Shown here piece after piece: positions 8,521 through 64,000 of a DNA stretch of 64,000 nucleotides. How positions within the stretch are numbered: position 1 is the stretch's first letter; every line of letters begins with the position of its first letter. The stretch comes from Sphagnum magellanicum (taxonomy: Eukaryota > Streptophyta > Sphagnopsida > Sphagnales > Sphagnaceae). Both the position numbers and the translations under genes were made by a program. The stretch spans positions 124,001 to 188,000 of the forward strand of contig CM038917.1 of the NCBI GenBank assembly GCA_021904315.1, written 5' to 3'. The notes beneath the pieces are model-generated. The model did not search any database. It was given only the letters and a program-made list of their open reading frames with translations, and was not told the origin of the DNA.

Positions 8521-9467
8521 TATCGCAACCGTAGCTTTGGGCTCGCGACCAAGGCAAAAGGGTTGTAAGGTTACGGGCCAAGAAAAAGCTTGGGAGTCAA
8601 GGCAAGAAGAAGCCCATGAGTCACATCACATGCTCCCGAAAGTGTAAGAAGTGTGAGGGAGTATGAGGGAGTGAACCCTCACACTCTCAAGGCAACTCCC
8701 ACTTTGGGAGATGGAGTCCCGGTGGACTTCCAAAACTTCAGAGAGCAATTTTAGGGTTCAAAACTCAATGGATTATGGCATTCTTTATATCATTGCAAAG
8801 CTCTTGGAACATAGATGTCTAAAATGGGCTTGCATTTCTCATTTTGACATCTAAAACACAAGTTATGGCCAAAAGAAGGGCCGGGAGTCAAATTGTCAAT
8901 TTGACTCTAGACCAGAAAAAGTCGGGAATCAACCCAATTTACTTGGTTGCAATGGGCTTGCAACATACTATTGAAAAGCTCTCGACGAGAGCTACAACTT
9001 TGCTTCAGATCGCATTGCGATCCGATGTCGACTTGCAAAGTTATGGGGCTCCAAAGTCGCGGGAGTCCTAACCAGCGCGATTTCGAGACTCCCATTCGAG
9101 AGTCCCGGGAGAGAAAAGTCATTTAGATGTAGCCTCCGTGGCCAAGCACAAAATATACTATAAGGGGGAAGGTGGTGGCTTCCCCCAAGTCCGGGCTTTG
9201 GTGAGTCTATTGTGTCCATGTTGCCCGTGGCTTGTCCTAGCACCAAAGGTGCTCCAACTATGCACTAACCACTTTGTGTGGGTTGTGTGTAGGCCCGTGT
9301 GAGTGAGTGAAGCTTGTCAACTCTTCCTAGTCCCATCCCGGAGCTTCAACACGCCCCTCTACCCCTCAAAGTGTTGTGAGCTTGGGAGTGTGCCCCGACT
9401 CCTCCCTCTTCCACTATCTTCTACTTGGACTCACATTTGAGTCCTTTAAGGAGTTGGGAGTGCGTCA
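8521..9467 (+). mobile_element. Solo LTR (long form, 947 bp), TSD ATCAT
   Basis: Starts TATCGCAACC (family consensus TGTCGCAACC, one change) and ends GGGAGTGCGTCA. ATCAT occurs immediately before (8516-8520) and after (9468-9472). It contains the family's internal landmarks: 'gggctcgcgaccaaggc' near the start, dense GGGAGTC/GACTCCC motifs, and 'ggtggcttcccccaagtccg' near 9172. No primer site or coding region follows, so it is a solo LTR. Confidence 0.85.
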
Positions 9468-11612: not shown

Positions 11613-13281
11613 TATCGTAACCCTAGCCTTAAGTTCGCGACCAAAGTAAGGGCTTGCAAAGTTGCGGGCCAAGAAGGAAGCCTGGGAGTGAAGGAAAGTG
11701 TGAGGGAATGAACCCTCACACTCCCAAACGAGCTTCCACTTTGGGAGTTGGTGACGCGCTCCCAAGTCCCTAGTTAGCCCCAAGTTGGGGCTAAGTCACT
11801 CAAATTGTGGAAATGCTCCCAGCTTCGAGCACTTAAAGGGGTGAGAGGGGCGTGCTGAAAGCTCCAGGATTAGATTAGGAAGAGGGACAAGCTACTTAGT
11901 TATTCGGTCCTATATCCAAAACCAACCAACAAGTTGGTTAGTATTCATTCGGGACACTCTTGGTGTTGGGACAAGCCACGGGCAATCTTGGACTCACTTG
12001 ACTCACCACGGCCCGGACTTGGGGGAAGCCACCACCTTCCCCCATATAGTATTCTCTGCGTTTCACCGCCACACTTACATCCGAATGACACTTTTTCCCG
12101 GGACTCCCAAACTGCAGTCCCGAAATTGTCCCAGTTTAGACTCCCGGGACTTTGGGCGTTCATAACTTCTCGCCCCAAACTCCGATTGGGATGAGGTTTG
12201 AAGCAAACTTGTAGCTCTCCTTGAGAGCTTTCCAACGGTGTGTTGTATTCCCCCTACACATACCAGGATCGGGTCGATTCCGGACTTTTAATGGTCGGGA
12301 GTCAAATTGCCAATTTGACTCCCGGCCCTTCTTTTGACCATAACTTGTGCTACAGATGTCCAAATCGTTCATGCGAGGCCATTTTGGACATCTACACTTC
12401 AAGAACTTTCCAACGATATAAAGAACATTTCGATGCTAGGTGTTTTGACCCCTACAATTATGTTCTGAGTTTTTGGGAGTTTTAGAGGACTCCCAAGTCC
12501 CATTTTCAGGAATGAGTGGCGACCTCACATTTCCCTCAAAGTGGGGTTGCAACAGTTGGAGTCCTGGTGGACTCCCGAATGTTCAGAGAGCAATTGCAAG
12601 GGTCAAAACCCAATGGCTTGAGGATTTCTTTATATCATTGGAAAGCTATTGAAACATAGATGTCTAAAATGAGCTTGCATCATCCATTTGAACATTTAAA
12701 ACACAAATTATGGCCAAAAGAAGGGTTGGGAGTCAAATTGGCAGTTTAACTCCCGCCCACTAAAAGTCGGGAATTATCCCAATTTCCTTGCGTGTAGGTG
12801 GTGTGCAACAAGGGCTACAATTTTGTTTTAGACCTTGTCTCAATCGGAGGTCTGCACACAAAGTTAGGGGGCCCCAAAGTCGTGAGAGTCTTAATTTTGG
12901 CAATTTCGGGACTCTCACTTGGGAGTCCCAGCACAAAATACCATTTGGATGTGGGCCTCGTGGAAAGGCACATAGTATACTATAAGGGGGGAAGGTGGTG
13001 GCTTCCCCCAAGTTCGGGCCATGGTGAGTCTAAGTTGCCCGTGGCTTGTCCTAGCACCAAAAGTGTTCAAACTATGCACTAACCACCTTGTGTTGGTTTT
13101 GTGTAGGTCCATGTGAGTAGTTGATGCTTATCACTCTTCCTAGTTCCATCTCGGAGCTCCAGCACGCCCCTCTACCCCTCAAAATGCTGTGAGTTAAAGA
13201 ATGTGCCCTGATTCCTTGCTTTTCCACCGTCTTCAGTTTGGACTCACATTTGAATCCATTAAGGAGCTTGGGAACGCGTCA
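11613..13281 (+). repeat. Solo LTR (long form) split by a reverse-oriented LTR
   Basis: The outer copy is 11613-11751 plus 12555-13281. It starts TATCGTAACC and ends GGAACGCGTCA. The junction is clean: the LTR text 'actttgggagttgg' stops at 11751 and resumes after the insert at 12555. The flanks ATAAT (left) and AAGGG (right) do not match, so this copy may derive from recombination between different insertions. Confidence 0.8.
11752..12554 (-). mobile_element. Solo LTR (short form, 803 bp) nested in an LTR, TSD GTTGG
   Basis: Starts TGACGCGCTCCC and ends GGGGTTGCAACA. GTTGG occurs on both sides (11747-11751 and 12555-12559). It lies in opposite orientation inside an LTR of the same family, which shows repeated rounds of activity and may favour hairpin formation. 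Confidence 0.85.
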
Positions 13282-14339
13282 AAGGGGTTGTGTGCATGGA
13301 AGAACGACTCATGTCCAAATGCATCGCTGTGCTATGCTAGGTGCCTACACTGACTAATGTGAAGCACTGTTGGAACTATCTACTATCGAGTCTACCATCA
13401 ATCGGATGTTCAATCATGGTTCTTCGGTTGATCAACTGCTGTCCCAACCAACTGATCGATGCCCACACTTTGTATTCAACATAACCCTAGTTCCAGTAAG
13501 AGTGAAGAGGTGTTCCTTAACAGGAACCACAATGCATTCTACTTAGTAATGAAATTTATGGTATGGAGTTTCATCTTTTGGAAAGGGGAATAAAGTGATT
13601 TTTCAACAACTTTTTTTTTTCACTTTCTTTGACATGGCAGGTGTAACATGCAATAGCAATTTGTGGCTGGGACCCATGGCTCCTACCCTACATTGTTGAC
13701 TGTGGGGAACGATTTGTAGTGCCATCCACAAAAAATAATGGATGCATTGTCATAGAAAATATAGGGATATCATGTGAGCCAAGCCCGATTGTCATGATGC
13801 ATGGCCAATGACAATCTGTGTTGATGACAGGATGGAGTTAATGGTTGTAATTAGTACTATTATTGGATGTCTGTGGGCAAAATGCATTTTTTAAGTGCAG
13901 AATGATTTCTAGATGGGTTTAGGGTTTAGGCCCATCTATTGGTAGGGCATACTGATATGCATCTATTTAGATGTTTTGTTGATTTATTAAGTTGGCTGGT
14001 GATGCAATACAAAGTTTCCCCCACAGATCCTGTTTAAAGTCCAATAGATGGGCTTCTGATTAGATTATGGAAAGCTAATCCAAATGGTTCACCAAAGTTA
14101 CTTATTAAAATTCCAAGCCCTATTCTATACCACCTAATTTGGGGCAATGATGCATCAAGGTCAATGGAAAGAGAAAAGTTTATAAGTTTTGGATTATCCA
14201 AATACGTGGATTTTTGGAAGGTGGGCATTGCACAAAGTTCCACATATGAAATGAAGATGAAGCCGTATGTGGAGTACTAGGAAGATGTTTTGTTGCATTT
14301 TTCAAGATTGTTACCACCTCAAAGTATAATTCTTTTGGA
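13282..14339. other. Spacer, no gene seen
   Basis: Moderately AT-rich, no open frame with a recognisable product. Confidence 0.45.
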
Positions 14340-25869: not shown

Positions 25870-26535
25870 GTGCGTACATCTCTCGCACACCAACGTGCCT
25901 CTTATGCATAACTTAGTACGTCCAAGTTCCAATAATATAGCTTGTCTCCGTAAAACATATACCAGTATGAGGATCGGGAGTGAAGTAATGTGAATAACAA
26001 CTCAGAATTGCAGAGACTAGTCTACTAAGTTCTTTCATTTTCTGTCAAGCTGGGTTCACACGGTGCTATTCTTTGCCAAACTGCTCACATACAATTCACA
26101 AATTCGAATCAGAAGGACTGAACTTTGTTTGATGAAGGCATTAAGTAGTGAGTGATTAGAGCTTGATTAGCAAAATGTTCTACGCGGTTCAAATTGGGTG
26201 CTAATAGGGCGCTTACATCAGCTAATATTACAGAGAAACCCAGATCTTCCTGCTGCGACAAATGATCTATTCGGCTGTGTTTATAAATAAAGTTTTGCAG
26301 GGTTTCATCATATTCGGCTGATAGAATATTGCAATAACAATGTGCCTTCCGATCCGTTTCTAAAGATAGCCCTTCCTTTCGTCCCTTATTAATAGGGCGA
26401 GTATTCGTGGGCAAAAGTGTTGCTGCAGTTTAATCACCTTGGCTCTGGAGTCACCAGCCTTGCTTGTCTTTGCTGCCACACGGTACTGTACACTATCCAT
26501 TTGAAAATTTTAATACGTTGTAGTTGCATGTACAG
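25870..26535 (+). other. Candidate 5'-UTR intron (666 bp)
   Basis: GTGCGT at 25870 follows TTCGCAG, and TGTACAG at 26529-26535 precedes the exon carrying the start codon at 26543. GT-AG ends and the position between a TATA box and the start codon support a 5'-UTR intron. The minus-strand frame at 26109-26414 inside it (101 codons) is unrecognised and treated as chance. Confidence 0.35.
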
Positions 26536-26542
26536 GCGCACC

Positions 26543-27184
26543 ATGGAGAACATGTCGAACGCCAAATTGATGCAAGGGCAGCTGCGTTATCCTCTCCTCT
26601 GCAGCTTCTGTGTGCTAGTGATGGCCACATTGCTGACAGGGGACCTGCAGTCTGCTGTTGTGGAGGCTGTAGACGTCACCTTTTTCGACAACTCTGGCGC
26701 ATGTCAGGGAGCAGGATTCACTTTTAACGGCCTCGCTGAGCGCACTTGTGCCGTAGTCACTAACGAAGGATCCGTTCAGATCAGAAATCTTGATAGTAAA
26801 AAGACGGGTTTGGGGTACAGAAATGGGGGATGCAAGACTCAGGTCTTCACCGGAAAGGGACCAAATGTTTGGTGCTTCGTTGGCGGCGGTATTACCGGCG
26901 CTTCCTGGTTCGTCAGCAGCGCCGAGTTGATCACTTCGATGACGAACTCTCGCGAGGAAACCAGCTCCGGCAACTGCTCTTCCATCATGCCTCCCCATAG
27001 CATTATCTTCACCGAAGACAGCTCCAAAGGTGCATGGGTTCTCAAAGCTAACAGTATTGCGGCCGAAGATTTGATGGCGCAGCTTCGAAGCGTTGACGAT
27101 GCCGCAAAAGTGTCTTGGCTCAAAGAGCAGGGTGCACACTTTGAACCTGCATCAGGCGCCATCGCAACAATTGTGAACATGTGA
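26543..27184 (+). CDS. Secreted cysteine-containing protein, possibly MiAMP1-like (beta/gamma-crystallin fold)
   Basis: The chosen start at 26543 gives 213 residues. The same frame is open further upstream, but this ATG has a strong context (GCGCACCATGG) and places a hydrophobic stretch (residues 16-32) near the N-terminus, with a likely signal cleavage after A42 (VVEA-VDV). The mature part, about 170 residues, has cysteines at 54, 69, 97, 111 and 145. Its first half is rich in Gly and aromatics (FFDNSGACQGAG, GYRNGGCKTQVF, WCFVGGGITGASWF), whose spacing recalls plant MiAMP1-type antimicrobial beta/gamma-crystallin proteins. The second half (residues 146-213) has no parallel that I know. The gene is CpG-rich against CpG-poor surroundings, has no frameshift, and is followed by a long 3' flank with AATAAA at 27690. 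It is probably a live gene; the fold assignment is inferred and weak. Confidence 0.75.
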   Translation: MENMSNAKLMQGQLRYPLLCSFCVLVMATLLTGDLQSAVVEAVDVTFFDNSGACQGAGFTFNGLAERTCAVVTNEGSVQIRNLDSKKTGLGYRNGGCKTQVFTGKGPNVWCFVGGGITGASWFVSSAELITSMTNSREETSSGNCSSIMPPHSIIFTEDSSKGAWVLKANSIAAEDLMAQLRSVDDAAKVSWLKEQGAHFEPASGAIATIVNM

Positions 27185-48597: not shown

Positions 48598-48671
48598 CAT
48601 GCCTTGTAGGATTTGAACCTACAACATCAAGTTTTGGAGACTTGTGTTCTACCAAACTAAACTAAAAATGT
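48598..48671 (-). pseudogene. trnW-CCA: Plastid-derived tRNA-Trp (CCA), decayed
   Basis: The minus strand is 74 nt, the length of plastid trnW-CCA, and aligns with it without gaps. Anticodon loop CTCCAAA gives anticodon CCA. The T arm GTAGG-TTCAAAT-CCTAC is intact and the anticodon stem CAAGT/ACTTG pairs fully. The acceptor stem is damaged, with C-A and A-C mismatches at pairs 2 and 3, so it is probably not functional. Against the plastid sequence as I remember it, nearly all differences are C-to-T or G-to-A. Origin: a nuclear plastid insertion, or a plastid-derived mitochondrial copy. Confidence 0.8.
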
Positions 48672-48903: not shown

Positions 48904-49162
48904 TTTCTTACTTTACTTGCTTACTTATTTACTTTACTTACTTTTTTACTTTAGTTAACTACTTGTTTTCTTATTTTACTTACTTAATTATTTATTTACT
49001 TGTAAATTCAAATTATCCCATATTTTTTGTCTTTGATTTCCATCTTGAACACTATATAACAAAGGTGTTTCACCTTCTAATTTCATAATCTAATGATGTG
49101 GCAATGGGGATGAGCTAAAAGGCTTAAGCCAAAAGGAAAATTCAAAAGAAATTAAAAATAAT
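48904..49162. other. Short AT-rich spacer
   Basis: ACTT-rich tracts continue; nothing else seen. Confidence 0.4.
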
Positions 49163-50087
49163 TGTCGCAACCCTAGCCTTGGGCTCGCGACCAAGGCAAA
49201 GGGCATTGCAAGGGTGCAAGCCAAAAAGAAGTCCAGGAGTCACATCACAAACTCCCGAGAGTGTTAGAAAGTGTGAGGGAGTATGAGGGAATGAACCCTC
49301 ACACTCCCAAGGCAACTCCCACTTTGGGAGATGGAGTCCCGGTGGACTTCCGAAACTTCAGAGAGCGATTGCAGGGGTCAAACCTCAATGTATTGTGGCG
49401 TTTGTTATATCATTGGAAAGCTCTTGAAGCGTAGATGTCTAAAATGGGCTTGTATTGCTCATTTGCACATCTGAAACACAAGTTATGGCCAAAAGAAGGG
49501 CCGATAGTCGAATTGTCAGTTTGACTCCCGACCACAAAAAGTCGGGAATCGACCCAATTTACTTAGTTGCAGGGGGCGTGGCACATATCGTTGGAAAGCT
49601 CTCGACGAGTGCTACAACTTTGCTTGAGACTGCATTGCGATTCGAGGTCTGCTCGCAAAGTTATGGGGCTCCAAAGTCGCAAGAGTCCCATTTGGCGCGA
49701 TTTCGGGACTCCCACTCGGGAGTCCCGGGAAAAATAACCATTTGGATGTAGCCTCCGTGGAGAGCTACAAAGTATACTATAAGGGGGAAGGTGGTGGCTT
49801 CCCCCAAGTCCGGGCCGTGGTGAGTCTTGTGTGTCCGTGTTGCCCATGGCTCGTCCTAGCACCAAGGGTGCTCCAACTATGCACTAACCACTTTGTATGG
49901 GTTATGTGCAGGCCTGTGTGAGTGAGTGAAGCTTGTCAACTCTTCCTAGTCCCATCTCGGAGCTCCAACACGCCCCTCTACCCCTCAAAGTGTTGTGAGC
50001 TAAGGAGCGTGCTCTGACTCTTCCTTCTTCCGCTATTTTCCTACTTGGGTTCACATTTGAGCCCTTTGAGGAGTTGGGAGTGCGTCA
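49163..50087 (+). mobile_element. Solo LTR (long form, 925 bp), TSD ATAAT
   Basis: Starts TGTCGCAACCCTAGCC and ends GGGAGTGCGTCA, the best-preserved ends in the window. ATAAT stands on both sides (49158-49162 and 50088-50092). No primer site or internal region follows. The 98- to 100-codon frames inside are chance translations of the LTR and recur in other copies. Confidence 0.9.
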
Positions 50088-50658
50088 ATAATAATGTACC
50101 TAACCTTTCACTTACATACCTTTTAAAATTGTTTACCTACTGTGAGCCATGGATTATAGCTTAACAATTAGTTAAGCTTTAGTTCCGTAATTTTCCTTAA
50201 TATTAATGATTTGAATGCTCATAAGCCTCTAAGTAGTGATTATTAATAGTTGAATCAGCTTTTGTGATATTTCTAGGCATATAATACTTCTTTATTTCAG
50301 TTGATGTAGCGCTTAATTAGTTAAGCACCTAGTAAACCTTTTAAAGTACATTATCCCTTTTATGTTGTAGAGAAGGGAAAGGATATGTAGAATTAGATGT
50401 GATTTATTGATATATAGGAAATACAAGCCCATAATTAACAATAGCATTTCGCCATGACAAGGTTAAATTAGTCTGTAGAAGAATCTTCAAGCACTAATGA
50501 TGTACTTATAAGATTTTTAGGATGTAGTCCTAATACATTTTTATTTAGTTTCACTTCTATCAGACTTTTAAATAGAATCAAATCAAACTTAAGTATTAAC
50601 ATTTTTGCTTGAGTAGCCTTAGGTGAATTACAACTTTATAACCGACTTAAAGGATAGA
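50088..50658. other. Spacer, 3' flank of the small gene
   Basis: AT-rich. A minus-strand AATAAA at 50545-50540 lies about 115 nt after the stop of the frame at 50659-51066 and could be its polyadenylation signal. Confidence 0.4.
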
Positions 50659-51430: not shown

Positions 51431-52790
51431 CGTTACTTATTACTACCGATAAATTATCCTAGTAGTTAGTTACTTGAAGTAATTAGGATGAAAAAATAGG
51501 ATGTGAAGGTCAACGGACGGAAAGGATAAGGATCAAGCTCAAGAGACCTCATCAAGATACCCAAGATAAAGGAAGGGATGAATCTTCCAATCCCATTAGT
51601 CATGAGGATTGTCATCCTATTTGATTGGAGGATGGATTTTTTCTTGTGTTGCATTGGGCCCAAGAATTCTCATCTTAAAACTCAATTGGATGGGAATTTA
51701 TTCTCAATTCTCATTGGCTTTAGAAGGATGAGGAGGCCATTGATTGGAACAAAGGATTTCAAAGCTTTCATTAGACAAGGGGAACAAGCTCAAGGAAGGT
51801 CATGGAGGCTTACCAAGGGAGAGGGTATTGTGTGTATGTGGGAAAAAAAGAAAGAGGAGGAGGTGTGAGGAAAATTTTTTAGTTCTTATGTGTGGAGAAG
51901 TGTTCATGGAAAAGGTGTGTGCAAAAATCAAACATGGAAGGAAGTTGTGTGTAACAAGTACTTGTAGCAAAACCTCTGGATTTTTGGTTCAATTAGTTGT
52001 TCCTCCCAAATCCACCATTGGATTTGTGTCAAAATGAAATCAATTTTACCTTGGAAGGTGTAGAAGGTTCTCCCCAATTTTCAACATCATCGAATTTGCT
52101 ATCAGGGAGCTACACTGGTTGGAAGTAAAGGGTGTTGTAGTGGAGTTCATGGAAGGATTTTCATGACAAGGCCTTTGGATTTTTATTTCAATTAATTGTT
52201 CCTCCCAAATTCACTGTTGGATTTGTGTCAAATTTAAATTAGTTTTAGTTTGAGAGGTGTAGAAGGTTCTCCTCAAAATTCAACATCATCGGAGTTGTTG
52301 TAAAGGAGCTACACTTGTTGGAAGTAGAGGGGGTTGAATTGTATGTTTTTTCCTTCAATCTAAGCAAAGTGATTTTTAGTTCAAAGCTTAACTCTTGATC
52401 TAAAAATAAAAATAAAAAATAAAAACTTATGAAATTTTGTAACATGGCTCCTTTTATATTAGCTTTCCAAAAATTCAATGCATGTTAGATTAGGAGGTTA
52501 TATGTAGATGTTATGACAAATGGAACGGAAGGGTTCCAACCATCAAGCGTGACATTGGATTGAACATCAACATACGGCTCCTTCATATTCCATCATGGTG
52601 AGTTACGATTATCTCACAATGTTTTTGTATCTTCAAATTGGACACAACGCATTAGATCCTTAGTGAATTTCATTACTTACCTTAAATCGTTTTACTTGTT
52701 AGAACTACAACTACATAGTAGTTTCATTTCCAACCGATTTTTTTTTGTGAGTGCATATCTTAATGATGAAGGTGTGCAAGAATTCTTCAC
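51431..52790. repeat. Right copy of the 1.37-kb dispersed repeat
   Basis: Matches 1-1378 in the same orientation, including the tandem 'cctctgga' units (about 51975 and 52170) and the end 'gtgagtgcatatcttaat..ttcttcaca'. The sequence after 52790 (a GTAGGTAGG/CCTACC-rich stretch) differs from that after 1378, which marks the right boundary. The left boundary lies near 51431 but could start earlier. Confidence 0.6.
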
Positions 52791-53793
52791 ACCTACCAAC
52801 CTACCAAATAAGTAGGTATGTAATTAACCTAGGTAGGTAGGTTGAACCAACCTACCTAGGCCTACCAAACAATTTACCTAATTCAACCTATGGTAATATG
52901 CCATGTGGCAAAATTATATTGTGCCATATGTCATGATCCAAAACCATATAAACAAATGAATTGGAAGTTTTAGATTATTTGAAAATTAAGATGGATTAAT
53001 TAACCACATGCTACCATGTGTCAAAATATTGTTCCAACATGTGGCATGGTTTTGAATGTCACCAAAATACTTGCACCTTAGTTGCAAATGCCAATACACA
53101 TGGGTTATTCCATACGATGGATGAAACTACATATATATTTGTACTTTGTCAAAAAATTGATGATATGAACACGACATCATCAAATTTATGACTAGTTTTA
53201 GGCAATTATGGGGTTTTTAGTTACAAAATGTCATTTTGAGTAAAAAATAGTCACAAACATTAGTTGCAAATTTGAGTTTATCTTCTAGTGTACTATGCAT
53301 TTGAATGCTACGAGTGCCTTGTCACAAAACTTTGCAAGTGTGGTTGTAAATGTGTCAAAATGGCAAACTTTCATTACATCATTCCATCTATCAAATGATG
53401 CACACAAATCTAGTAAAATCTCTACATTTGTCTTCTAAACCAACAACTAATAACTTGAAATGAAACTTGATTTGTATGCAAAACCATTAACCATTTTCAA
53501 AAAATGGACACTAAAAGATCCTAAATTACATGTTGGAATTTGCTGGACATTGAAGTTTCACATAACACATTGTTAGTGCAATGACATTGGATCTTCTTGT
53601 AGCACATTGTTGGTTTGGCTTGTGCGTCACTCCACATGGATAGATCCTAGAGTTCTTCTATGAACTCAATATGTGCCACCTATTTGCCTTCCTTCTTTGC
53701 TTTTCTTTTTTCAATCGTTTTCGTCATGTTGAACTTGTAAATTCCCAATGTGATCTATAGAATAGAGCTTGGTAAACAATACCCATGTTGCTA
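52791..53793. other. Spacer and decayed 3' part of a transposase
   Basis: 52795-52870 is a palindromic CCTACC/GGTAGG tract. From about 53640 to 53540 the minus strand still reads coding-like pieces, such as a peptide with ELRIYPCGVTHKPNQQ, which may be the tail of the transposase at 53794-54429. The remainder is featureless. Confidence 0.35.
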
Positions 53794-54429
53794 TCAAGGC
53801 CAATAGGCTATGAGCAACTCCTTAGTTGCCCCCTTTCGCTTGGACCTAGATGGGGCTTCAAGTAAGGTCGCAAATTGACCAATATGGTTAAAGTGTAAGA
53901 CTAGGGTTTTCGATGCTATTGCACATGAATATGTGGACTCTTCTAGTTGCAATGATGGATGTGAGAAATTTCCATTGCCACTTAGGCATGGATTATTGGC
54001 TTCAAATGGTGGGTCACAATTAGACCCTTCAATTTCAACAAAATAATGCAAGACATTATCATTAAAAATGTTAGATTCAACCAAAATTTCCTCAATATGT
54101 AAATCAACTTCTTCGAAATGAAAATTAGGTGCTTCTATATCCATAAATTATTTTGATAGTTGCATCTTGCTTAGCATAGCTTTTAGATTCAAAGGCTAAA
54201 TTCTAATTGTTTTCAAACCTTTGTAAATATTTTGTAGGTTCAATGTTTTTTTCAAAACTCAAGAAATCCAATGTGCCAAATCTTGTTTTTTGGCACCTTT
54301 CCCTTTGTTCATTAGTGTCCAAACATCCATGTATGCTTTAAATGCAATTTTGAAAGGTTTGAAGCATGCAACATTTAAAGGATGGAATGCATGGCTAGTG
54401 TGTGATGGCAAGGTGACTAAATCCAACCC
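53794..54429 (-). pseudogene. pogo/Tigger-type (DDE_1) transposase remnant, C-terminal part
   Basis: One minus-strand frame reads GLDLVTLPSHTSHAFHPL, then NVACFKPFKIAFKAY and WTLMNKGKGAKKQDLAHWIS, then after stops RI-stop-PLNLKAM and an acidic tail starting MDIEAPNFHFEEVD. LPSHTSHAFHPL followed by CFKPFK is the signature that follows the second catalytic Asp in DDE_1/pogo-type transposases, and the stop in RI*PLN sits where the conserved Trp normally is (TGG to TAG). Everything N-terminal is missing because a retrotransposon begins at 54430, in the middle of the gene. Confidence 0.65.
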
Positions 54430-55029
54430 TGTCATGCCCGTACATGGCCTCATACATGATAGCCAGTTATAGGCATGCCCATGTGCACTTTTAGGGTTAA
54501 TGTACGGTCTTAGGCGACTGTACGTTATTAGGTACTTAGGGTTGCAGTTGGTTCGCAACAGTATAAAAGGCCAAGCCCTTCCTTTCTCTTTTTAATTTTT
54601 TTATATTTCCTTTGTCAAGAGAGTTTCCTCCATAATAAGCTAGGATTTCTAGATGCTCATGGCGGCCATTGCACGGCCATTGTCTACATACATTTCATCT
54701 TCTTCTTTCTTTGTAATTCAATTCTCGAAAAACTACACTTTCTGTTACTTCATGTTGAAAGCCGCAGATTTCTTTGCCTGTGAGTTCTTGAGTTATTGTT
54801 ACTAATGCTAGTGTTAATAGTGTTGCTACTACTGGTGTTACTGTTGTCGAAGGGTGCTGGTGTTGTTGCTGCTAAAGGGAGTTAGCATTGTTTTAGGAAG
54901 GAGCTTGTGTTATGCAAGCCAACAGAGTTGAGATCCTTGACAAGTTTCAAAGCTCCCCCTCTTTTTCTCTTTCTTTCTTTCCCTTTCATGCATAGAAACT
55001 TGCCCTCCTCTGGCGAGTAAAAAAACAAA

Positions 55030-55530
55030 AATTTAGGCGGTGGCGCCCGCCATCGTTGCAGAGCAACGTAGCATTGCCTGTTGCAAAGCAATGTCACTGT
55101 AACGACACGAGCTTGCAATGTTTTCGCGACACAAGCTGTAACACCGCAACATTTCGAGTTGCAATGTTGTAGTGTCATGAGCTACAACACCGTAACATTC
55201 CGAATTGCAGCACCACAACATTCTGGATTACAACGCTGCAACGTTGCAAACTACAACGCCACACAGCGTCGCAAGCTGCAACGCCACACAGTACCGTAGT
55301 GCCGCGAACTATAGCACCACAACGCTGTAGCGCCGCTAGCTGTAGCGCCATAGCGCCATGAACTGCAGCGCCATCAATGTAGCAGGAGTAGTGCCACAGC
55401 AACAGCGCCACAATGTTGTGAGCTGCAACACCATCGCAGAACAGCAGCACCGTAGCAATAGCGCCATCATTGAGCAGCACTGCCATAGCAACAACGCCAT
55501 TGCTGCTACAGCATTGTAAGCGACAACGTT
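55030..55530. repeat. GCAACG/GTAGCGCCA minisatellite inside the LTR-like region
   Basis: Degenerate short units such as 'gcaacgccaca', 'ctgtagcgcc', 'gaactgcagcgcc' and 'ttgcaatgttgtagtg' repeat for about 500 bp. The open frames on both strands here are translations of the repeat. Confidence 0.65.
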
Positions 55531-55559
55531 GCCATCGTTATGACCTTGGTTCGTTCGAC

Positions 55560-55890
55560 TTTTGTTGAACAATTCGTTCAAGTTTCGTTCGTTGAACTTC
55601 CATCCGATGTTTGTCGGACTTTTATCCTGCGCCTTGTTGTGTTGTTATCCTACGCCCTGTGCGTTGTCATCTTACGCTTTGTTGTCCTGCGTCATGCGCC
55701 CTGCCTGCTTGCGTTTTTCCGTCCTACCATCATGCGCCTTATCATCCTACGTTTTGTTGTCCTGTGTCCTACGATTTTGTTATCATGTGTCCTACGATTT
55801 TGTCATTTTGCTTTTTCATCCAACATCTGTTTAACTTCCGTCCAACCTTCGTCCGACCTTCGTTTGACCTTCGTGTGACGTTTGTGTGTC
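55560..55890. repeat. CGTCCTACG-type minisatellite
   Basis: Units around 'ttgttgtcctgcgtc', 'tgtcctacgattttg' and 'ccttcgtccgacc' repeat imperfectly. It lies between the first minisatellite and gag. Confidence 0.6.
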
Positions 55891-55997
55891 ACGGGTCATT
55901 TTCAACAACGCATTGTATTCTTCAAACTAACGTTGTGTTAGAATTTTGTAGCTAGTGATGTGTACTATCACAAAATTTTGGGGCATGGGACAACACC

Positions 55998-58740
55998 ATG
56001 TCCTCGGATGATGAGAGCACTACCATTCAGCTAGAGCCTAAGTATCAGCTACGAAGTAACACATAATCCTTTGAGCCGATTTCTTGAAGCTCGCGATCTT
56101 GACGACGGTACCATCAAATGTCTACAGCACCATCGTCATCTAGTACAACTCCTACCAGGAATTTAGGTTCAGGTTACATTACATCAATGATACATCAAAG
56201 TCCATTTAGAGGGGTTAATTAATGGGGTGCACCTGCTTTCACACCATCACCGTATATTCCGTTGCAAGCTGTGACCTCAACACCCATACACACCATGGAG
56301 GTCAACAGTTCCTCTAGGAGAATTGAGAAGTTCGGCAGAAGGCTAGGTACTATCTCTTTGAGGGAGTTCAAGGTAACTTTTTAAACTGTGGTTTGTGAAT
56401 TGGAGTTCAAGTCTAACGCTAATTACACCGAGGCGTTTGCATTTAAACAATTGGCCTGTTATGTGCACTATGAGGCATTGGATGTCTATGAACAACATTC
56501 TGCAAGGATTTTGGGTGTGACCCAAATTCCTAATTTAGCTTACGCCATAGCCATCACCACCGCCTCTCAAGCTACATCGCAAGCTGCAATTGCACATCAT
56601 GGGATTATGCCCAATAATCCAGACCTACCTCAGTAAACCTGGTACCTACCTCAGTAAACCTTTCTCCTCAACAACTCATTGTTGCTATCGCAAACATTCC
56701 TCCCACCACGGATGTGCTAGCTTTTGCTAATCCAGTGGGGGAAATCTTTTGAATTCTTGAGCTAGAATTTCTAGTCAAAAGTTTTGAAAAAATTCTACAC
56801 CTCGCCACCTTCTTTCGGCAGAAGGATGAAACCATCAAGATGCTCTACAGGAGGCTTCTCAAATTCAAAGAGGATACCCATAGCATCACAGACCTGGAAG
56901 CTGCCCACCAGTATCTTCGTTCATTGGAAGGTATTCCAACACTCCATGCGCAAGTTTTGCAACGGGTTTTTGTAGAATTTAGAGACTTGTACACTTTGTT
57001 GAATGTGTATAACATTTCTAAAAAGCTAGAACTAACTCATGCACACTATGAAGTCAATACTATGAGGGCCTCCATCACGTTCAAGGCCTCAGCCTACGTC
57101 AACTACGCCAACTAGATCATCACATTCTTCTTCAAGGACTAAAGCGGTGCACTCGGCTACACCCATCCTACTTTCTTGCAACTACTAACGCATTCTTAAG
57201 TCCCTTGTTGAACCCACTTGAGGGTCCAACTATGTAGAGTTGCGGAAAGTTGGGACTTGGGGGCCGCTCGCGACTTCCAGCACTAAAAGGGGGTAGAGGG
57301 GCGTGCTAGAAGTCCCGGGATTAGACTAGGAAGAGGGACTAGATTATCAAGCTTGAATCTGCATCCAAAACCAACCACAAGAGGGTTAGTTCACATTTGG
57401 GAACACCCTTGGGTGTTGGGACAAGCCACGGGCACTTGGACTCACTTGACTCACCACGACCCGGACTCGGGGGAAGCCACCACCTTCCCCCATATAGTAT
57501 TCTCTGCAGCTCTCCGAGGCTACATCCGAATGGCACTTTTTCCCAGGACTCCCAAGGAGGAGTCCCGAAACTGTCTCGGGTTGGAGTCCCGGGACTTTGG
57601 GAGCTCATAACTCCCGACTGAAGAGTTCGATCAAGACGAGGTCTAAACCAAAGTTGTAGTTCTCCTCGAGAGCTTTCGAATGCCATGTCACACTCTAGAA
57701 TCGGACATAGGGAAAAGGTTGGTTCCTGACTTTTAGTGGTCGGGAGTCAAATTGTCAGTTTGACTCCCGGCCCTTCTTTTGCCCATAACTTGGGCTGTAG
57801 ATGTCCAAATGGCTCATGCAAGGCCATTTTGGACATCTACACTTCAAGACCTTTCCAATGAGACCAAGAACACTCAAATGAAAGGAGATTTGACCCCTCA
57901 AATCGAGCTTTGAGTCTTCAGGAGTCCCGGAGGGCTCCATTTTCCCATTTAGCCCCAAAGTGGGGTTGCGACAACTACTGTGGCAATCCTACCCACAAAG
58001 CTAGTGAATGTAACATTCCTTCCAAGGATCTTTTTTGTGATTATTGTGGGAAAGAGGGACATCAGGAATCTGTTTATTTTGCCAAGTTCCCGAAACGAAA
58101 GCAACTCCGATTACAACGGTAAAATCTACTAGCATCTTCTGTTGTCCCTCAACCAAAAGCCAAGCCACCTCAACCTTCCACTTAGGCTTTGCTCACCAAA
58201 GGTAATTCCAACAAGAATGCTAAGAAGAAGGAACACAATATTGACAAGAGGGAGGTGTTTCAAGCCCATGCAATTCAAGTTCAGACTCTAAAAAATGAAC
58301 TCGAATCATTAAAGGCCCAACTTGCTAATCTAAAAGGCAAATCCTCCCAACTAGCTAGTCATGCACAACCTGTACAAGGTTCAGGATCACAAGAGGGACC
58401 TCCTAGGTCGTTATATGGCTTCCCACATGATGCCATGGTTGGGGAGTACCTGGGCTTTCCACTCCACACAATTCTAGTCTCACACCAAAATTTGCTACTT
58501 TTTTTTGCCCTTCCCACATCGTGGCACAATAGGTTAGTGTAACACCCAAAGTTTCTGCCACTAGGCAGGTAATTCAGATTGATGGACTCGCATTTGGTTC
58601 AAATCCTATTACCAGGGCTAGAGGAGTTCGAGTAGTCATGCCACTATCTTTTCGTCTTCTCAACACTGAAGAATAACGCACCTTGTTAGCGAGGGGGGAG
58701 GAGACTACTACACCACAAGCTGTTAGGGCATCAAATTCCC
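55998..58740 (+). pseudogene. gag: Retrotransposon gag with two zinc knuckles, interrupted by a solo LTR
   Basis: From the ATG at 55998 (MSSDDESTTIQLEP) one protein can be followed with stops and frame changes: a Ser/Thr/Pro-rich N-terminus, FKQLACYVHYEALDVYEQHS (about 56436-56500), a capsid-like helical region (56830-57110, KMLYRR, DLEAAHQYLRSL, HAQVLQRVF), then the nucleocapsid. The first knuckle (C-x2-C-x4-H-x4-C) is split by the LTR: its first two codons are at 57177-57182 and the remainder at 57979-58010. The second (58036-58077) has Tyr (TAT) in place of the last Cys. A coiled-coil-like stretch (VQTLKNELESLKAQLANLKG) follows at 58280-58340. The protein would package element RNA; this copy cannot be translated intact. 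Confidence 0.75.
57186..57973 (-). mobile_element. Solo LTR (short form, 788 bp) in gag, TSD ACTAC
   Basis: Starts TAACGCATTC (family TGACGCACTC) and ends GGGGTTGCGACA. ACTAC occurs before (57181-57185) and after (57974-57978). The duplicated bases are codons of the first zinc knuckle, so the gag frame resumes exactly after the insert. Confidence 0.85.
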
Positions 58741-58796
58741 GTGTCCTAGGAGTACATGTACATTAGGAAAAAACACAATTTTCCACTGATCAGCTT

Positions 58797-59642
58797 ATGG
58801 AATGCCAACTTCAAATGCATGAAGTGGCACAAAAGCTTATGAGTACACCATTGTTTGGTTTTCAAGATTTGAAACTAAGCACCATGGACATAATTACAAT
58901 CCTAGAAGATACTCTGAACACTACATCATGTCCTCTACTAATCCCTGATCCACATGCTCTAGAAGTCCCATCCAACACCTTGGAGAGACATTCAATTGGC
59001 TCACATGTTGCAAACGACATTCGTAATCTAGTCACTAGTTCTAGCATGGCTAAACTAATGGGCTTTCCTACCTATGATTCTACATTCACCTATCAGAAGG
59101 GAGTTAAGAACACCTCACTTGTGGATTTGTTACTCAGCAAAGGTGTTGTGGATAGCCATTCTCTTCACAAAGTTTTTCATTCATTTTCGAAGGTGGTGCC
59201 TAGTGAGAAAACTTCCATCGCCACCGGAGTTGCCATTGTCGACAATACTGGGTTAGCAATCCAAGTGGGAGGACATACACCCAGAGTGGTACTTCTTAAC
59301 ACATGTGCTCGACTAGTGATTCTTGGAATTCAATTCGTTAAGAAGATGGGCATGCTTGACTCCAAACTACGGAAATCTATGTGGCAAATTCACACCATTA
59401 GTGGGAGCATAGAGGAGGTACTTGGGGAAAGCTGTAATTTGATTGCACTTAACTTCAATGAAAGTACAGATCAGGAGCTTTGCTTACATGTCAGATGTTT
59501 AGTCACCAATGCCACTAGTTATGATGTGTTCATTAGGTAAGAGGCCCTGTTTCCACCAGGTTTCATAATTGACAACTGGTTCGAACATGCGTACTACCAA
59601 GTGGATTGGGAGACTAATGGCCACCACTTGGGATACATACCT
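58797..59642 (+). pseudogene. Retropepsin-like protease region, catalytic triad lost
   Basis: An open frame of 247 codons (58797-59540) contains RVVLLNTCARLVILGIQF at residues 163-180. The position fits the retropepsin active-site strand hydrophobic-D-T/S-G-A, but here D is N168 and G is C170, so it is inactive. The downstream CLVTNATSYDVFI fits the C-terminal part of retrotransposon proteases. After a stop at 59538 the frame continues (EALFPPGF, WETNGHHLGYI) up to the LTR at 59643. It lies between gag and DNMT, as expected of pol. Confidence 0.65.
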
Positions 59643-60461
59643 TGACACACTCCCAAGTCCCTGGTTAAACCCACTTGAAGGTCCAACTATGTGTAGTTGC
59701 GGAAAGTTGGGACTTGAAGGGCGCTCCCGACTTCCAGCACTAAAAGGAGGTAGAGGGGCGTGCTAGAAGTCCCAAGATTAGACTAGGAAGATGGACTAGA
59801 AGATCAAGTTTGAATCTACATCCAAAACCAACCACAAGAGGGTTAGTTAGCATTCGGGAACACCCTTGGGTGTTGGGACAAGCCACAGGCACTTTTACAC
59901 ACAAGATTCACCACGGCCCGGACTCGGGGGAAGCCACCACCTTCCCCCATATAGTATTCTCTGCAGCTCTCCACAGGACTTGCATCCAAATGGCACTTTT
60001 TCTCAAGACTCACAAGTTGGAGTCTCGAAACTGTCCCGAGTTGGAGTCCCAGGACTTTGGGAGCTCATAACTCCCGACTGCAGAGTCCGATCAAGACGAG
60101 GTCCAAAGCAAAGTTGTAGCTCTCAAAGCGAGATTTCCAACGCCGTGTTGCACTCTCAAATCGGATGTCGGGATGAGGTCGATTCCCAACTTTTAGTGGT
60201 CGGGAGTCAAACTGCCAGTTTGACTCCCGGCCCTTCTTTTGCCCATAACTTGGGCTGCAGATGTCCAAATGGTTCATACGAGGCCATTTTGGACATCTAA
60301 ACTTCAAGAACTTTTCAATGACATAAGGAACGCACGAATTTGAGAAGATTTGACCCCTAAAATTGTCTTATGAGTTTTCGGGAGTCCCGGAGGACTCCAA
60401 GTCTCCACTTTTGGGAGTGGGAGTTGCATTGTCCCACTTTGCCCAAAGTGGGGTTGCGACA
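59643..60461 (-). mobile_element. Solo LTR (short form, 819 bp) in pol, TSD TACC(T/C)
   Basis: Starts TGACACACTCCC and ends GGGGTTGCGACA. The flanks are TACCT (59638-59642) and TACCC (60462-60466), a 5-bp duplication with one transition. The pol reading frame resumes after it. Confidence 0.8.
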
Positions 60462-61312
60462 TACCCCTTGATTTACATGGGAACCATAGTCCTATGGCTC
60501 ACCATTGTATGCTCAACGAAGCACACACCATTTCCTACATCCAACAAGCTAACCACGAGTGGATAGAGGGAGATGAGGAGGAGATAGCTTATGTTCAAGC
60601 TACTGAAAGCTTGAAGGTGGTTCCTATTAACATTCAACATGGACCAGAGGTTTTATAGAGGTTAAAAGTAGCCCACAAGCCCTTGGTCAAAGCTTTGTCT
60701 AGTTTTGAGAGCATGTAGAGTCATGGCGAACCGATTAAACCATTATTTCGTTAACTAATCACCTGGACACCACCTAAGGAAGGGATTACATTACTAGAGC
60801 TCTTTGGTGGTATTGGTACAGGTCTCGAAACCCTACTATAGTCAAGGATGGTGGTTTGGAAGTATTTCTACGTAAACATTAATCCTATTGCAAGGCAAGT
60901 GGCGGCATCAAGAATGAGGGAGTTCACAACAAGATTTCCATAATAGTTTGCAACCACCACATGGAAAGCTAGTTTCACATTTTTGCCCTCTGATATACAA
61001 CTAATTCAGAAGAAGCATATGGAATTACTTGGTCCCATCGACTTCATCATTTCAGGTTGGGAGTGTCCAGGATTTTCAACGGCTGGATTTGGAGAAGGCT
61101 TGAGTGACACAAGATCTGGTCTTTTCACGGACATGATACGATTGATCACCTGGGCTCAATCCATTTCTCCCGCACTTGGTTATGTAATTAAAAACACCCC
61201 TTTTCAGCTTGATCAGAGGGAGAAAGTCCAGGAACACTACACACTAGTCAAGCATTACCTTGGAGAGCCGCTCCTACTTGATGTGGCACAATGTGGTTCC
61301 TATGCGCAGGCA
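60462..61312 (+). pseudogene. Cytosine-5 DNA methyltransferase encoded by the retrotransposon
   Basis: After a linker (60462-60780, with CMLNEAHTISYIQQ) the frame reads ITLLELFGGIGTGLETLL at 60785-60838, motif I (AdoMet binding). A TAG follows at 60839. IDFIISGWECPGFSTAG (about 61040-61090) is motif IV; the catalytic Cys is intact at 61064-61066. GEGLSDTRSGLFTDMIRLI follows. GYVIKNTP (about 61178-61200) is motif VI, in which the catalytic Glu is Lys (AAA, 61190-61192). LLLDVAQCGSYA at the end corresponds to the region before motif IX and is cut at about 61312. The order and wording fit C5 methyltransferases, closest in feel to the DNMT3/DRM side. Several stops and the loss of motif VI Glu make it inactive. 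It follows protease on the same strand and so belongs to pol. DNMT capture by retrotransposons is known from charophyte algae and dinoflagellates. Confidence 0.8.
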
Positions 61313-61327
61313 TGGTTTGAGTAGGAA
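61313..61327. other. Inversion junction between two retrotransposon halves
   Basis: The + strand methyltransferase frame loses similarity after GSYA (about 61312). Only some 15 bp later the - strand integrase/PHD frame ends with its stop codon (61330-61328). The two coding strands therefore meet tail to tail. Confidence 0.6.
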
Positions 61328-61882
61328 TCAAGGTGCTGTAAGAGAACATGATGAACAATACCAATTGCTAATGGGAATTTGAGTGAGCTCCGGCTTGAGG
61401 CAGAAGAAATGGTATCCACTATTACAGTTGTCACAAAGCAGCATCTGATCAACATCGTCTGTCCTTTTACATACCTGACATGGATAATCAAGTGGAGGAA
61501 TCCAAGTCAATGTGATGATGGTAGGATCTAAATTCGGCAAGTGGCAGGGCGCACAATTTTTGGAATGATCCCGAATTGTGCGTCTGTCAGCTCCTTGCAA
61601 CTCCAACACACTTGAAGGCATGATCATCTTAATCCTCAAGATAGTGCGATCGGAAAAAGTGTTTAGAGTATCATTGGGTTGCCGTTGGAAATACACAAAA
61701 TCACCAACATCAAATTGTTTCACCTTAGGTTTGTAACTACCACCTCGTGTGTGTACATACCATAAGGTGTCTCGATGTTGTGCAATGGACAGGTTCTCCA
61801 TGGCCATGGGCATAACCTTCTTGAATAGAGTAGCCCCTTCTGCAATGACCCTAGCCCAAGTGGCTGGGGAGTCCAAGTCCAC
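61328..61882 (-). pseudogene. Integrase C-terminal region ending in a PHD finger
   Basis: A 184-codon open stretch that continues the integrase upstream. Residues 1-50 are helical (ATWARVIAEGATLFKKVMPM). KQFDVGDFVYFQRQP (55-69) is the SH3-like C-terminal barrel of Ty3/gypsy integrases. Residues 135-179 form a C4HC3 PHD finger: C135-x2-C138-x11-C150-x2-C153-x4-H158-x2-C161-x14-C176-x2-C179, with the usual MLLCDNC and WYC. All eight zinc ligands are present. PHD fingers read histone H3 tails, so the domain could target integration to particular chromatin, as chromodomains do in chromoviruses. The stop follows five residues after the last Cys. Confidence 0.8.
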
Positions 61883-62650
61883 AACCTAGTCCATTTGAGC
61901 AGCAATGGAAGAAGGTGGAATGGGATGTCTCCCAAAAAGTAAAAAGTAAGGGGAGAAATGAGATAAAGAAGCGTGTTTGGACATCGTGTAACCCATGGCG
62001 ATGTATGGGAGGGCCAGGTCCCAATCCTCTTTGTTTTTAGTGAAGCAAATCTTTCGAAGTCCCTTCTTGCACGTTTGAACCATCCTTTCTACAAGGCCAT
62101 CAGGTTGGGGATGATCTCTTAAAGTCCGACAATGGTCAATGAGAGCATGGTCAAATAGGTCTTGGAATTATCCCCTGAATTCTGATCCTTGATTAGTAAG
62201 GCACTCAACATAAGCCCCAAACTTACTTAGAACCTGTTGTAAGAAAGCCTAGCTAGTGTTGTGTGATGACCTGTCCGGTAGTGCAACAAGCTCAACCCAC
62301 TTTGAAAAATGTTCAATCATAATCATGATGTAAACATTACCCTTGGAGGTTTGTGGTAACTCTCCAACTAAATCACATGACCAATGATAGAACATGCCCT
62401 GAATAGGGAGTGGAAAAAGCATGAGCTATCAAGAGGAGAAAGAAGTTCTCACTCTATCACATTGTTCACACCTAGCAATGATGTTTCGGGCTTGAGCATA
62501 CATACCTCTCCAATGGTAATGAGGAGCGAGAAGGCTATAAGTACGCTTAACTCCAAAGTGTCCAAGTTTCGAGTGTACCTTTTGAATAAGATTAGGCCGT
62601 TCATGTGGTGGTGGAACCACTTTGTCGCCTTGTGGTAAGTGTTAGACGAG
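61883..62650 (-). pseudogene. Ty3/gypsy integrase: zinc-binding and catalytic core
   Basis: The HHCC domain is at 62620-62429: H16-x4-H21-x29-C51-x2-C54 in the open stretch that begins MVPPPHERPN. The core follows with SCDLVGELP (first Asp, about 62370), then ECLTNQGSEF (about 62190), in which the second catalytic Asp is Asn, then GLVERMVQTC (Glu, about 62080) and KEDWDLALPYIAMGY. Stops at several Gln/Glu codons and the D-to-N change show that it is dead. It is continuous with the PHD-containing C-terminus. Confidence 0.75.
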
Positions 62651-63340
62651 GTGATTGTCCCTCCATGAATAGCATTTGAACCACTTTTATATGCGATCCC
62701 GTTGACTTGATGTAACTTGGGGAGGATATTCCCCATGTTGAAGAAACCTCAAAGTGTCCAAATCCTCCCATATATCCATAATGGGATGCTCAACCAAGTT
62801 ACATTGTAGTAGTGCAAGATAACTAGATGCCTCATATACATGTACTGCTGGAATTTGATCAAAATCTTGCCTGGCTTTTGAAAAATCTCTAGAGGCAATG
62901 AAAGGTCTTTGCAACATGGTATCCACATTCTAATGTGTAATATTAGGTCAGTGAATAACCTTGAACTCATACTCTTGAAGTATAAGTGCCCAACGAGTTA
63001 ACTTACCAGTAAGCTTATCATTGGTCATCAACCACTTGATAGGTTGGTGGTCAATATACAAAGTGAAATTGGTGCCATAAAGATAGGGCCTGAAATGTAT
63101 GATGGCCCCTACAACAACAAGGCACTCCCCCTCGTATGAAAAGTAGTTATTTTCAGCCTTGTTGTTGCTTCGAGATGCATAGGCGATAACATATTCCTTG
63201 CCTTCCTCATCAAGTTGGCCAAGAATAGCTCCAATACCAAGAGCACTCTAGTTAGTGTGTAGAATGAAGACCTTGTTGAAATCAGGTCTTCTCAGAATGG
63301 GGAACTCTGAAAGCTTTTATTTGAATGTGTTGAAAGCTTC
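62651..63340 (-). pseudogene. RNase H domain and linker of the same pol
   Basis: After TWSDEA the minus strand reads KVFILHTN (first RNase H Asp changed to Asn), SALGIGAILGQLDEEGKEYV, ASRSNNKAENNYFSYEGECL (Glu present), LYIDHQPIKWLMTNDKLTG (Asp present), RWALILQEYEF. A linker region (62926-62687, PFIASRDFSKARQDFDQIPA) leads to the integrase. In-frame stops are at about 63316, 63248 and 62937. Confidence 0.7.
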
Positions 63341-63982
63341 CTAAGCCTCATCACTCCATGTCGAAACAACATCCTTCTTTAGCAATGCATAGAGAGGATG
63401 AGCAATAGTATTGAAGTTTTGGACATAAATTATGTAGTAATTACATAATCCGATGAAGCTCCTCAACGTGTGAACATCAGTAGGATTGGGCATTTCCAAA
63501 ATGGCTACTACTTTGGCCCAATGAGCCATAATACCATTTGGCAAAATTTTATGTCCAAGGTAAATTACTGAGGTGCTAGCAAACTCACACTTTTTAGGAT
63601 GGATCTTCATATTGACTTCATGGAGCCTCTTGAATAACTCCTCAAGATGAGCCAAATGCTGTAAGAGTCCCTTGCTATGCACTAGGATGTCATCTATGTA
63701 GCACTTCAGGAAATCTGCCCCTTCGAGAACCTGGTCCATGACTCGTTGAAAGAAGACAAGTGCATTCTTTAATCCAAAAGGCATCATAAGCCATTCCCAT
63801 AACTTGGTGCTTCCATGGAATGTTGTTTTCTTGCGATCCTTTGTAGTGAACACAATCTAGTTGTAACCTTGCCTCAGATCCACAATTGTGAAGATGTTTG
63901 AATATCTAATGTTATCAAATAATTATTCAGGGATGGGCATGGGGTACCAATCATGAGGTGTAACTAGGTTCAAAGGCCTATA
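63341..63982 (-). pseudogene. Ty3/gypsy reverse transcriptase, N-terminally cut
   Basis: Just inside 63982 the minus strand reads RPLNLVTPHDWYPMPIPE, a stop, then FTIVDLRQGYN followed by TAG (where Gln is usual) and KTTFHGSTKLWEWLMMPFGL. The catalytic YIDD is at 63700-63689 and FIGLCNYY at about 63450. These are RT motifs of the Ty3/gypsy lineage in order. The N-terminal part lies beyond an LTR that starts at 63983. Confidence 0.8.
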
Positions 63983-64000
63983 TGACGCACTCGCAACTCC
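63983..64000 (-). repeat. Start of another LTR of the TGTCGCAACC family, cut by the window end
   Basis: TGACGCACTCGCAACTCC matches the reverse-oriented end of the family (compare 4399). Only 18 bases are visible. It interrupts the RT frame. Confidence 0.6.

Follow-up and report, generated by a model that had tools for sequence, protein, structure and literature searches.

A Ty3/gypsy-type retrotransposon family of the moss Sphagnum magellanicum with a DNMT3-type methyltransferase and a PHD finger in its Pol region

The window described here, a stretch of 64,000 nucleotides from contig CM038917.1 of the moss Sphagnum magellanicum, harbors a copy of a Ty3/gypsy-type retrotransposon that encodes its own C5 cytosine DNA methyltransferase (DNMT) between the protease and the reverse transcriptase (RT), and a PHD finger after the integrase. 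Cytosine methylation is a main tool of plants against transposons, and here a successful transposon family encodes that tool, apparently kept by selection. The pairing of a PHD finger with a DNMT suggests a reader–writer strategy, and self-methylation of the complementary DNA (cDNA) combined with PHD-guided integration is the reading that we favor for the element, with a probability of roughly 0.55. A preliminary description, made from the letters of the window, had recognized the methyltransferase and the Ty3/gypsy type, and the latter is confirmed by the Pol order of protease, RT, RNase H, and integrase, in which the integrase follows RNase H; its suggestion of a vascular-plant lineage fails, as the host is a moss.

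In the window copy, the C5-methylase profile PF00145 of Pfam matches a stop-free piece at 60947-61321 with E = 1.1e-8, and the segments corresponding to motif I, motif IV with the catalytic cysteine, and a remnant of motif VI lie in a single forward frame interrupted by stops. The methyltransferase had been proposed to be a part of the element, and this is borne out by its sister copies and by database proteins. Ten copies of what is here called family 1 were fetched as split stretches from the genome examined (438,994,042 bp in 31 contigs, denoted C4, C6, C11, C20, and so on), having been picked for long open frames, which the window copy lacks, and three further copies were added to give 13. 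The order zinc knuckle, protease, pre-DNMT, DNMT, RT, RNase H, H2C2, and integrase, with the PHD segment after it, is found in all ten long-frame copies, and the three further copies agree. In the stretches of one copy scanned with Pfam, the matches were gag-asp_proteas (8.2e-8), DNMT (6.9e-9), RVT_1 (1.7e-29), RNase H (8.6e-39), H2C2 (9.1e-16), rve (7.5e-12), and PHD (1.3e-11). A single frame unites DNMT, RT, and RNase H in the unmodified 820-residue database protein P0241, its DNMT being 87% identical to the plus-strand piece of the window and its RT 91% identical to the minus-strand piece, and the protease end is fused to the DNMT in the database proteins P0045, P0052, and P0068. The forward strand of the window copy displays only gag-protease and DNMT, with stops, as might be seen if a host methyltransferase gene lay beside a retrotransposon fragment or if the frame had arisen by chance; this explanation, to which we assign a negligible probability, is refuted by the P0241 fusion and the ten collinear copies, and the host has three genes of its own, read as DRM-type and separate from the element, which gave no match to family-1 pieces at E 0.01.

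The gag zinc knuckle and the retropepsin-like region named in the preliminary description are secured through the sister copies, where both stand in order in 10/10. In the window copy itself, the zf-CCHC match is weak (E 0.0077, below the Pfam cut-off) and the protease is not significant by Pfam (Asp_protease_2, E = 0.18), its active site reading LLNTCA where 12 of the 13 sister copies have LLDTGA; the first part of gag is represented by a piece at 56753-57112 that was recovered in 9/10 sister copies.

The DNMT piece of the window matches at least 150 genome places, the window included (150 scored of 662 candidates), and the RT piece likewise at least 150 (150 scored of 3286 candidates), while PF00145 matches 124 genome places, host genes counted in. 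P0241 matches at least 55 places (55 scored of 5282 candidates, in 56 rows), with 49 rows spanning residues 1-820 and the remaining rows starting at 18, 41, or 74, ending at 798 or 819, or forming two overlapping rows of C6. Its catalytic cysteine (residue 73) falls inside a single stretch in 53/55 places; the C6 place is divided into the two overlapping rows, and the match on C4 begins one residue after the cysteine. By the preliminary description, its reading would be refuted if copies of this element turned up in which the domain was missing. Among the best 56 of 150 RT matches, 47 have a DNMT match on the same strand, the two starts lying 1.4-2.7 kb from each other and most often 1554 or 1704 bases, and the window copy, whose DNMT is inverted relative to its RT, and two P0241-matching places raise the count to 50/56; the other six, at C2:88276, C3:19773777, C5:3816925, C5:2385868, C12:11856349, and C17:11244630, have no DNMT match among the matches listed, and to that extent they tell against a constant association.

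Among 542 candidate database proteins, 467 contain the C5-methylase domain at E <= 1e-3. The relatives include protein P0228 of Sphagnum compactum and protein P0260 of the liverwort Calypogeia fissa, the latter with the same linker and RT and known from the linker and RT part alone. A scan of viral contigs with P0001 gave zero pattern matches, and a scan of prokaryote contigs gave nine pattern-matching stretches, none encoding a relative, in collections from which the window's own genome may be missing. One recent copy is located on C20, a contig of 4.7 Mb that is probably the sex chromosome; in a published account, Sphagnum chromosome 20 is described as Ty3-rich and as having about a quarter of the size of the other chromosomes (PMC9946827). 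On these counts, and on the near-identity of some terminal repeats described below, the family looks abundant in this land plant and seems to have moved recently.

A profile built from 18 database relatives of the methyltransferase was searched against solved proteins, and the resulting list, which goes up to E = 10, contains 50 sequences. The best match was DNMT3A (E 2.5e-7), followed by DNMT3C and DNMT3B, with DRM at 1.2e-3 and HhaI at 0.025; neither DNMT1 nor CMT is among the 50. Aligned with DNMT3A, the enzyme is collinear over motifs I to X, without the rearrangement of DRM, and the element-borne enzyme is thus assigned to the DNMT3 type by the ranking of profile scores. The host DRM-type genes are 28-30% identical to the DNMT piece of a second family of the element, discussed below, over their longest matches. 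In family 1, the catalytic cysteine and motif VIII (AHRLRNWWTN) are kept in 13/13 copies, and motif X was found in 12/13.

Selection on the coding region was estimated as the ratio of nonsynonymous to synonymous divergence (dN/dS) by the Nei-Gojobori method for all pairs of the 13 copies, codons with stops being skipped. The ratio is 0.25 for the DNMT, 0.31 for RT, 0.28 for RNase H, 0.21 for the integrase, 0.16 for the integrase C-terminus, 0.14 for the PHD finger, and 0.46 for the linker, indicating that purifying selection acts on the DNMT and the PHD finger of the element. Weighing on the other side, 10/13 of these copies had been preselected for long open frames, and the pairs share history and are not independent. 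Mean dS ranges from 0.06 to 0.27 depending on the domain, a hint that subfamilies have exchanged sequence.

Whether the enzyme is active as a methyltransferase is where the favored reading meets its strongest rival, namely that the domain has been retained to bind nucleic acid or to serve a structural purpose and that methylation has been lost, a possibility that we consider clearly less probable than self-methylation. In family 1, motif IV reads ECQ in 13/13 copies, with glutamate in place of the usual proline before the catalytic cysteine, and motif VI reads ENT in 12/13 in place of the usual ENV, which is found in the C19 copy, so catalysis in this family may be altered. When the DNMT of the similar KnitGypsy-Dnmt3 element, from the charophyte Klebsormidium nitens, was assayed in yeast, no methylation was obtained, a result judged inconclusive by the authors (PMC5890265). 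These observations weigh against an active enzyme and suit a non-catalytic role; against that role stand the retention of the catalytic cysteine and of motifs VIII and X, the dN/dS of 0.25, and the second family, in which the motifs are canonical (PCQ and ENV in 3/3 copies).

The PHD finger is well above threshold in the window, where PF00628 scores 47.6 bits against a cut-off of 24. In the 13 copy translations, a ligand cysteine has been lost from the two copies C15b and C19, a stop interrupts the C7 copy, and the remaining ten are whole. Its solved relatives are headed by KMT2D and MLL3, followed by KDM5, WSTF, BAZ2B, ATXR5, CHD4, and UHRF1, among others. Solved PHD relatives include readers of unmodified H3K4; the ligand proposed below for the moss finger is carried over from such relatives, which counts against the guidance part of the favored reading.

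The ends of the element depart from the ordinary LTR (long terminal repeat) structure. Five of the ten copies consist of A1 (about 311 bp), the coding part, B1 (178 bp), the dinucleotide GC, A2, and B2, and the other five stop after B1; none of the ten has the ordinary layout, in which the coding part lies between two identical LTRs, and ordinary LTRs are ruled out by the arrangements A1...B1-A2-B2 and A1...B1. As the ends are split direct repeats, the element is of the gypsy type by its Pol and not by its repeat layout. Its ends read TGTC...GACA, and a perfect 4-bp target duplication flanks 8/10 copies. The integrase has a DDE core (rve, 7.5e-12 in the Pfam scan of one copy), and the Pol stretches scanned, from a single copy of either family, matched no recombinase family with a limit of E 0.5. 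In the five copies with both pairs of repeats, A1 and A2 differ at 0-4 of about 310 positions and B1 and B2 at 0-5 of 178, and one copy has zero differences across 488 bp of repeats; some insertions are therefore recent.

A junction of B1, GC, and A2 is found in 5/5 copies, where GACA-GC-TGTC forms a palindrome; a G-tract (polypurine tract) stands directly before B1 in 10/10 copies, one base off in the C14 copy, and an exact TATAAAA occurs within A in 7/10. With the G-tract before B1 and a TATA box in A in most copies, reverse transcription would yield LTRs of the order B-A, and the integrase would then act on the palindromic B-A junction of circles, so that a two-LTR circle opened there would give the form A-int-B-A-B and a one-LTR circle the form A-int-B. 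We infer from these features that the LTRs are B-A and that integration proceeds from circles opened at the palindrome, which would explain how an element with a DDE integrase comes to have DIRS-like repeats. Several observations weigh against this model: the target duplication agrees at 3/4 bases in the C10 copy and at 2/4 in C7, 3/10 copies, including the one whose repeats are identical, are without an exact TATAAAA in A, the ten copies have no ordinary TGG-type tRNA primer site directly after A1, and recombination between B1 and B2, the plainer alternative, could produce the A-int-B form just as well.

The second family comprises at least three copies (on C14, at C18:10531240, and at C8:22146222), in which DNMT, RT, RNase H, H2C2, and integrase follow one another in the order of family 1. 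The Pfam scan of one copy gave CCHC at 1.2e-5, a weak protease at 0.054, DNMT at 1.1e-13, and PHD at 1.2e-8, as well as RT, RNase H, H2C2, and rve; its frame is broken by three single stops. Compared as one copy each, families 1 and 2 are 43% identical in the DNMT, 50% in RT, 73% in RNase H, 58% in the integrase, 62% in the integrase C-terminus, 33% in the PHD finger, and 34% in the protease. Split repeats were found in two copies of family 2, the A1 of one lying outside the stretch examined, and the third copy ends after B1; the B1-GC-A2 junction in two copies is the same as in family 1. The common order, repeats, and junction of the two families argue for a single capture of the DNMT, which would predate the split of the two moss families.

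In the favored mechanism, a Gag-Pol particle would bring RT and DNMT together, and the new double-stranded cDNA would be methylated, probably at CG, before or during integration; CG is the probable target because the DNMT3 borne by a DIRS element, SymbioDIRS-Dnmt3, produced CG methylation in yeast (PMC5890265). The PHD finger would steer the integrase to chromatin with unmodified H3K4, and the element would enter the genome resembling DNA methylated by the host, whereby it might be shielded from recognition as foreign or its effect on neighbors might be tamed. The 13 copies are depleted in CpG (observed/expected 0.34-0.40; 0.44 for the whole window), which fits methylated, decaying transposons, whichever enzyme methylates them. 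The enzyme might instead work in trans, its targets being host chromatin or other transposons whose silencing it would lower or raise, with self-methylation incidental; if expressed, the many DNMT-bearing places (at least 150 of 662 candidates) would supply much enzyme, but selection at the level of the element needs a benefit in cis, and the location inside Pol would tie the enzyme to the particle, so we hold action in trans to be unlikely. Still less probable is a methyltransferase that acts on RNA (the genomic RNA or the tRNA primer) and not on DNA. DNMT2 is the RNA-methylating type, and the sequence of the moss enzyme is DNMT3-like; RNA methylation has nevertheless been proposed for SymbioLINE-Dnmt (PMC5890265), and the lack of an ordinary primer site next to A1 would be in keeping with it.

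The window copy is, to judge from its sequence, a single old and dead Ty3/gypsy insertion that has been broken by three inserts, two of them solo-LTR-like, and by an internal inversion (Table 1). Its A1 carries TATAAAA at position 133 of A, and its A1 and A2 differ at 23/291 bases, so the copy is old; stops interrupt gag, DNMT, and Pol, and motifs IV and VI are altered, motif IV reading ECPG where sister copies have ECQG (12/13) or ECQR (1/13). The nucleotide match to a sister copy ends on the plus strand at 61308 and switches to the minus strand at 61309; the arrangement on one strand and in pol order given by the preliminary description stands for gag, protease, and DNMT, and the half from RT to the PHD finger lies on the opposite strand. 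The match stops at 63982 and picks up about 1 kb further on, and the inversion extends beyond the window to about C11:190066, after which B1, A2, and B2 follow in plus orientation and ACCC recurs, the 3' end having been placed by eye (CACAATA where CACGACA is expected). As B1-A2-B2 follow in this orientation and ACCC recurs, the window represents one insertion with an internal inversion, and two separate convergent elements are ruled out by the same sequence.

Table 1. Features of the retrotransposon copy in the window (positions of the 64,000-nucleotide stretch).
Feature	Position	Strand	Remark
Target-site duplication ACCC	54426-54429		Directly before A1; read in flank
Terminal repeat A1 (TGTCATGCCC...TTCAAT)	54430..54724	+	72% identity to repeat A of sister copy
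Leader, partly low-complexity	54725..55998	+	Between A1 and ATG at 55999
gag, first part, decayed by stops	55999..57185	+	55863-57186 is an 86% nucleotide match to sister copy
First solo-LTR-like insertion, from an unrelated element; interrupts gag ahead of the zinc knuckle	57186..57973	.	ACTAC on either side
gag zinc knuckle and following gag stretch	57974..58542	+	Pfam stretch 58036-58065
Protease region, active site decayed	58767..59642	+	80-85% identity to same region of sister copies
Second solo-LTR-like insertion	59643..60461	.	Flanks TACCT / TACCC, 4/5 bases the same
Link and first part of DNMT3-like C5 methyltransferase	60462..61308	+	PF00145 E 1.1e-8; cut by inversion 61308/61309
Motif I, LFGGIGTG	60800-60823	+	Same frame (with stops) as catalytic Cys and motif VI remnant
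Catalytic Cys codon (motif IV)	61064-61066	+	
Motif VI remnant, YVIKNTP	61181-61201	+	Glu changed to Lys
Inverted part of the same copy	61309..63982	-	91.3% nucleotide match to 3' part of sister copy, minus strand
PHD finger	61346-61480	-	Pfam 1.7e-12
Integrase C-terminus	61520-61885	-	
Integrase core	61889-62167	-	Without Pfam match in window copy; sister copy rve 7.5e-12
H2C2	62432-62641	-	Pfam 3e-17
RNase H	62951-63247	-	Pfam 8.8e-31
RT	63344-63982	-	Pfam RVT_1 7.2e-21
Start of insertion of about 1 kb in RT gene, continuing past window end	63983..64000	.	5 nt common to both edges

Both inserts that the preliminary description had called solo LTRs were confirmed as solo-LTR-like. They belong to one family of sequences about 66-87% alike, with members in the window at 2515-3509, 4399-5311, 5412-6041, 8516-9475, 11752-13282, 49158-50095, 57186-57973, and 59643-60461, and two such copies stand side by side in opposite orientation at 11828-13188. 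Elsewhere, the window contains a 1.4 kb duplication on the same strand (3-1378 and 51433-52791, 81% identical), a tRNA-Trp gene with anticodon CCA at 48598-48671 on the minus strand, and an open frame of 262 residues at 26396-27184 on the plus strand for which no Pfam match is listed at E up to 10.

Elements of the KnitGypsy-Dnmt3 kind have been known since 2018, and what is new within the literature reached is the occurrence in a bryophyte, the PHD finger, the two old families, and the model of the end structure; titles and abstract openings revealed no earlier account of land-plant retrotransposons that carry a DNMT, subscription journals and preprints being mostly beyond reach. With recent and many older copies in this genome, the role of the DNMT in the life cycle, left open in PMC5890265, becomes testable in a land plant. 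The closest known system is KnitGypsy-Dnmt3, a Gypsy element whose Pol frame includes a non-rearranged Dnmt3. Its domains are of the Gypsy type, its repeats follow the DIRS arrangement (figure 4 legend), and its DNMT is under purifying selection (PMC5890265, de Mendoza 2018); the moss element is like it in each of these respects. A difference is the PHD finger at the C-terminus of the moss element, the word PHD being absent from the main text of PMC5890265. Other differences are the moss host, the at least 150 DNMT places, the two families that are 43-50% identical in DNMT and RT, and the ECQ and ENT motifs of family 1, the Klebsormidium element being compared by description and not by sequence. 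The Klebsormidium capture has been described as an independent acquisition. If the moss capture predates the split of families whose RTs are only about 50% identical, it may be older than the Klebsormidium case and shared with it, and if shared it would be very old. More tentatively, and at odds of well under even, one may envisage an old streptophyte lineage that joins a PHD reader with a DNMT3 writer, picks its site by histone state, arrives methylated, and integrates from B-A circles.

SymbioDIRS-Dnmt3 of Symbiodinium reportedly has repeats in the DIRS-type layout. DIRS elements use a tyrosine recombinase, whereas the moss element has a DDE integrase and 4-bp target duplications; of the traits of DIRS/PAT elements it shares the split direct repeats and lacks the tyrosine recombinase and the absence of target duplication. 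Its likeness to SymbioDIRS-Dnmt3 is that of a retrotransposon Pol with a DNMT3 domain (PMC5890265). Plant DRM and host DNMT3 enzymes share the C5 methyltransferase motifs with the moss element, but the motif order of DRM is rearranged and that of the element runs collinearly from I to X, as in DNMT3A. Plant chromoviruses, which are also of the Ty3/gypsy type, carry a histone-reading chromodomain at the integrase C-terminus; the moss element has a PHD finger instead, together with a DNMT and split repeats.

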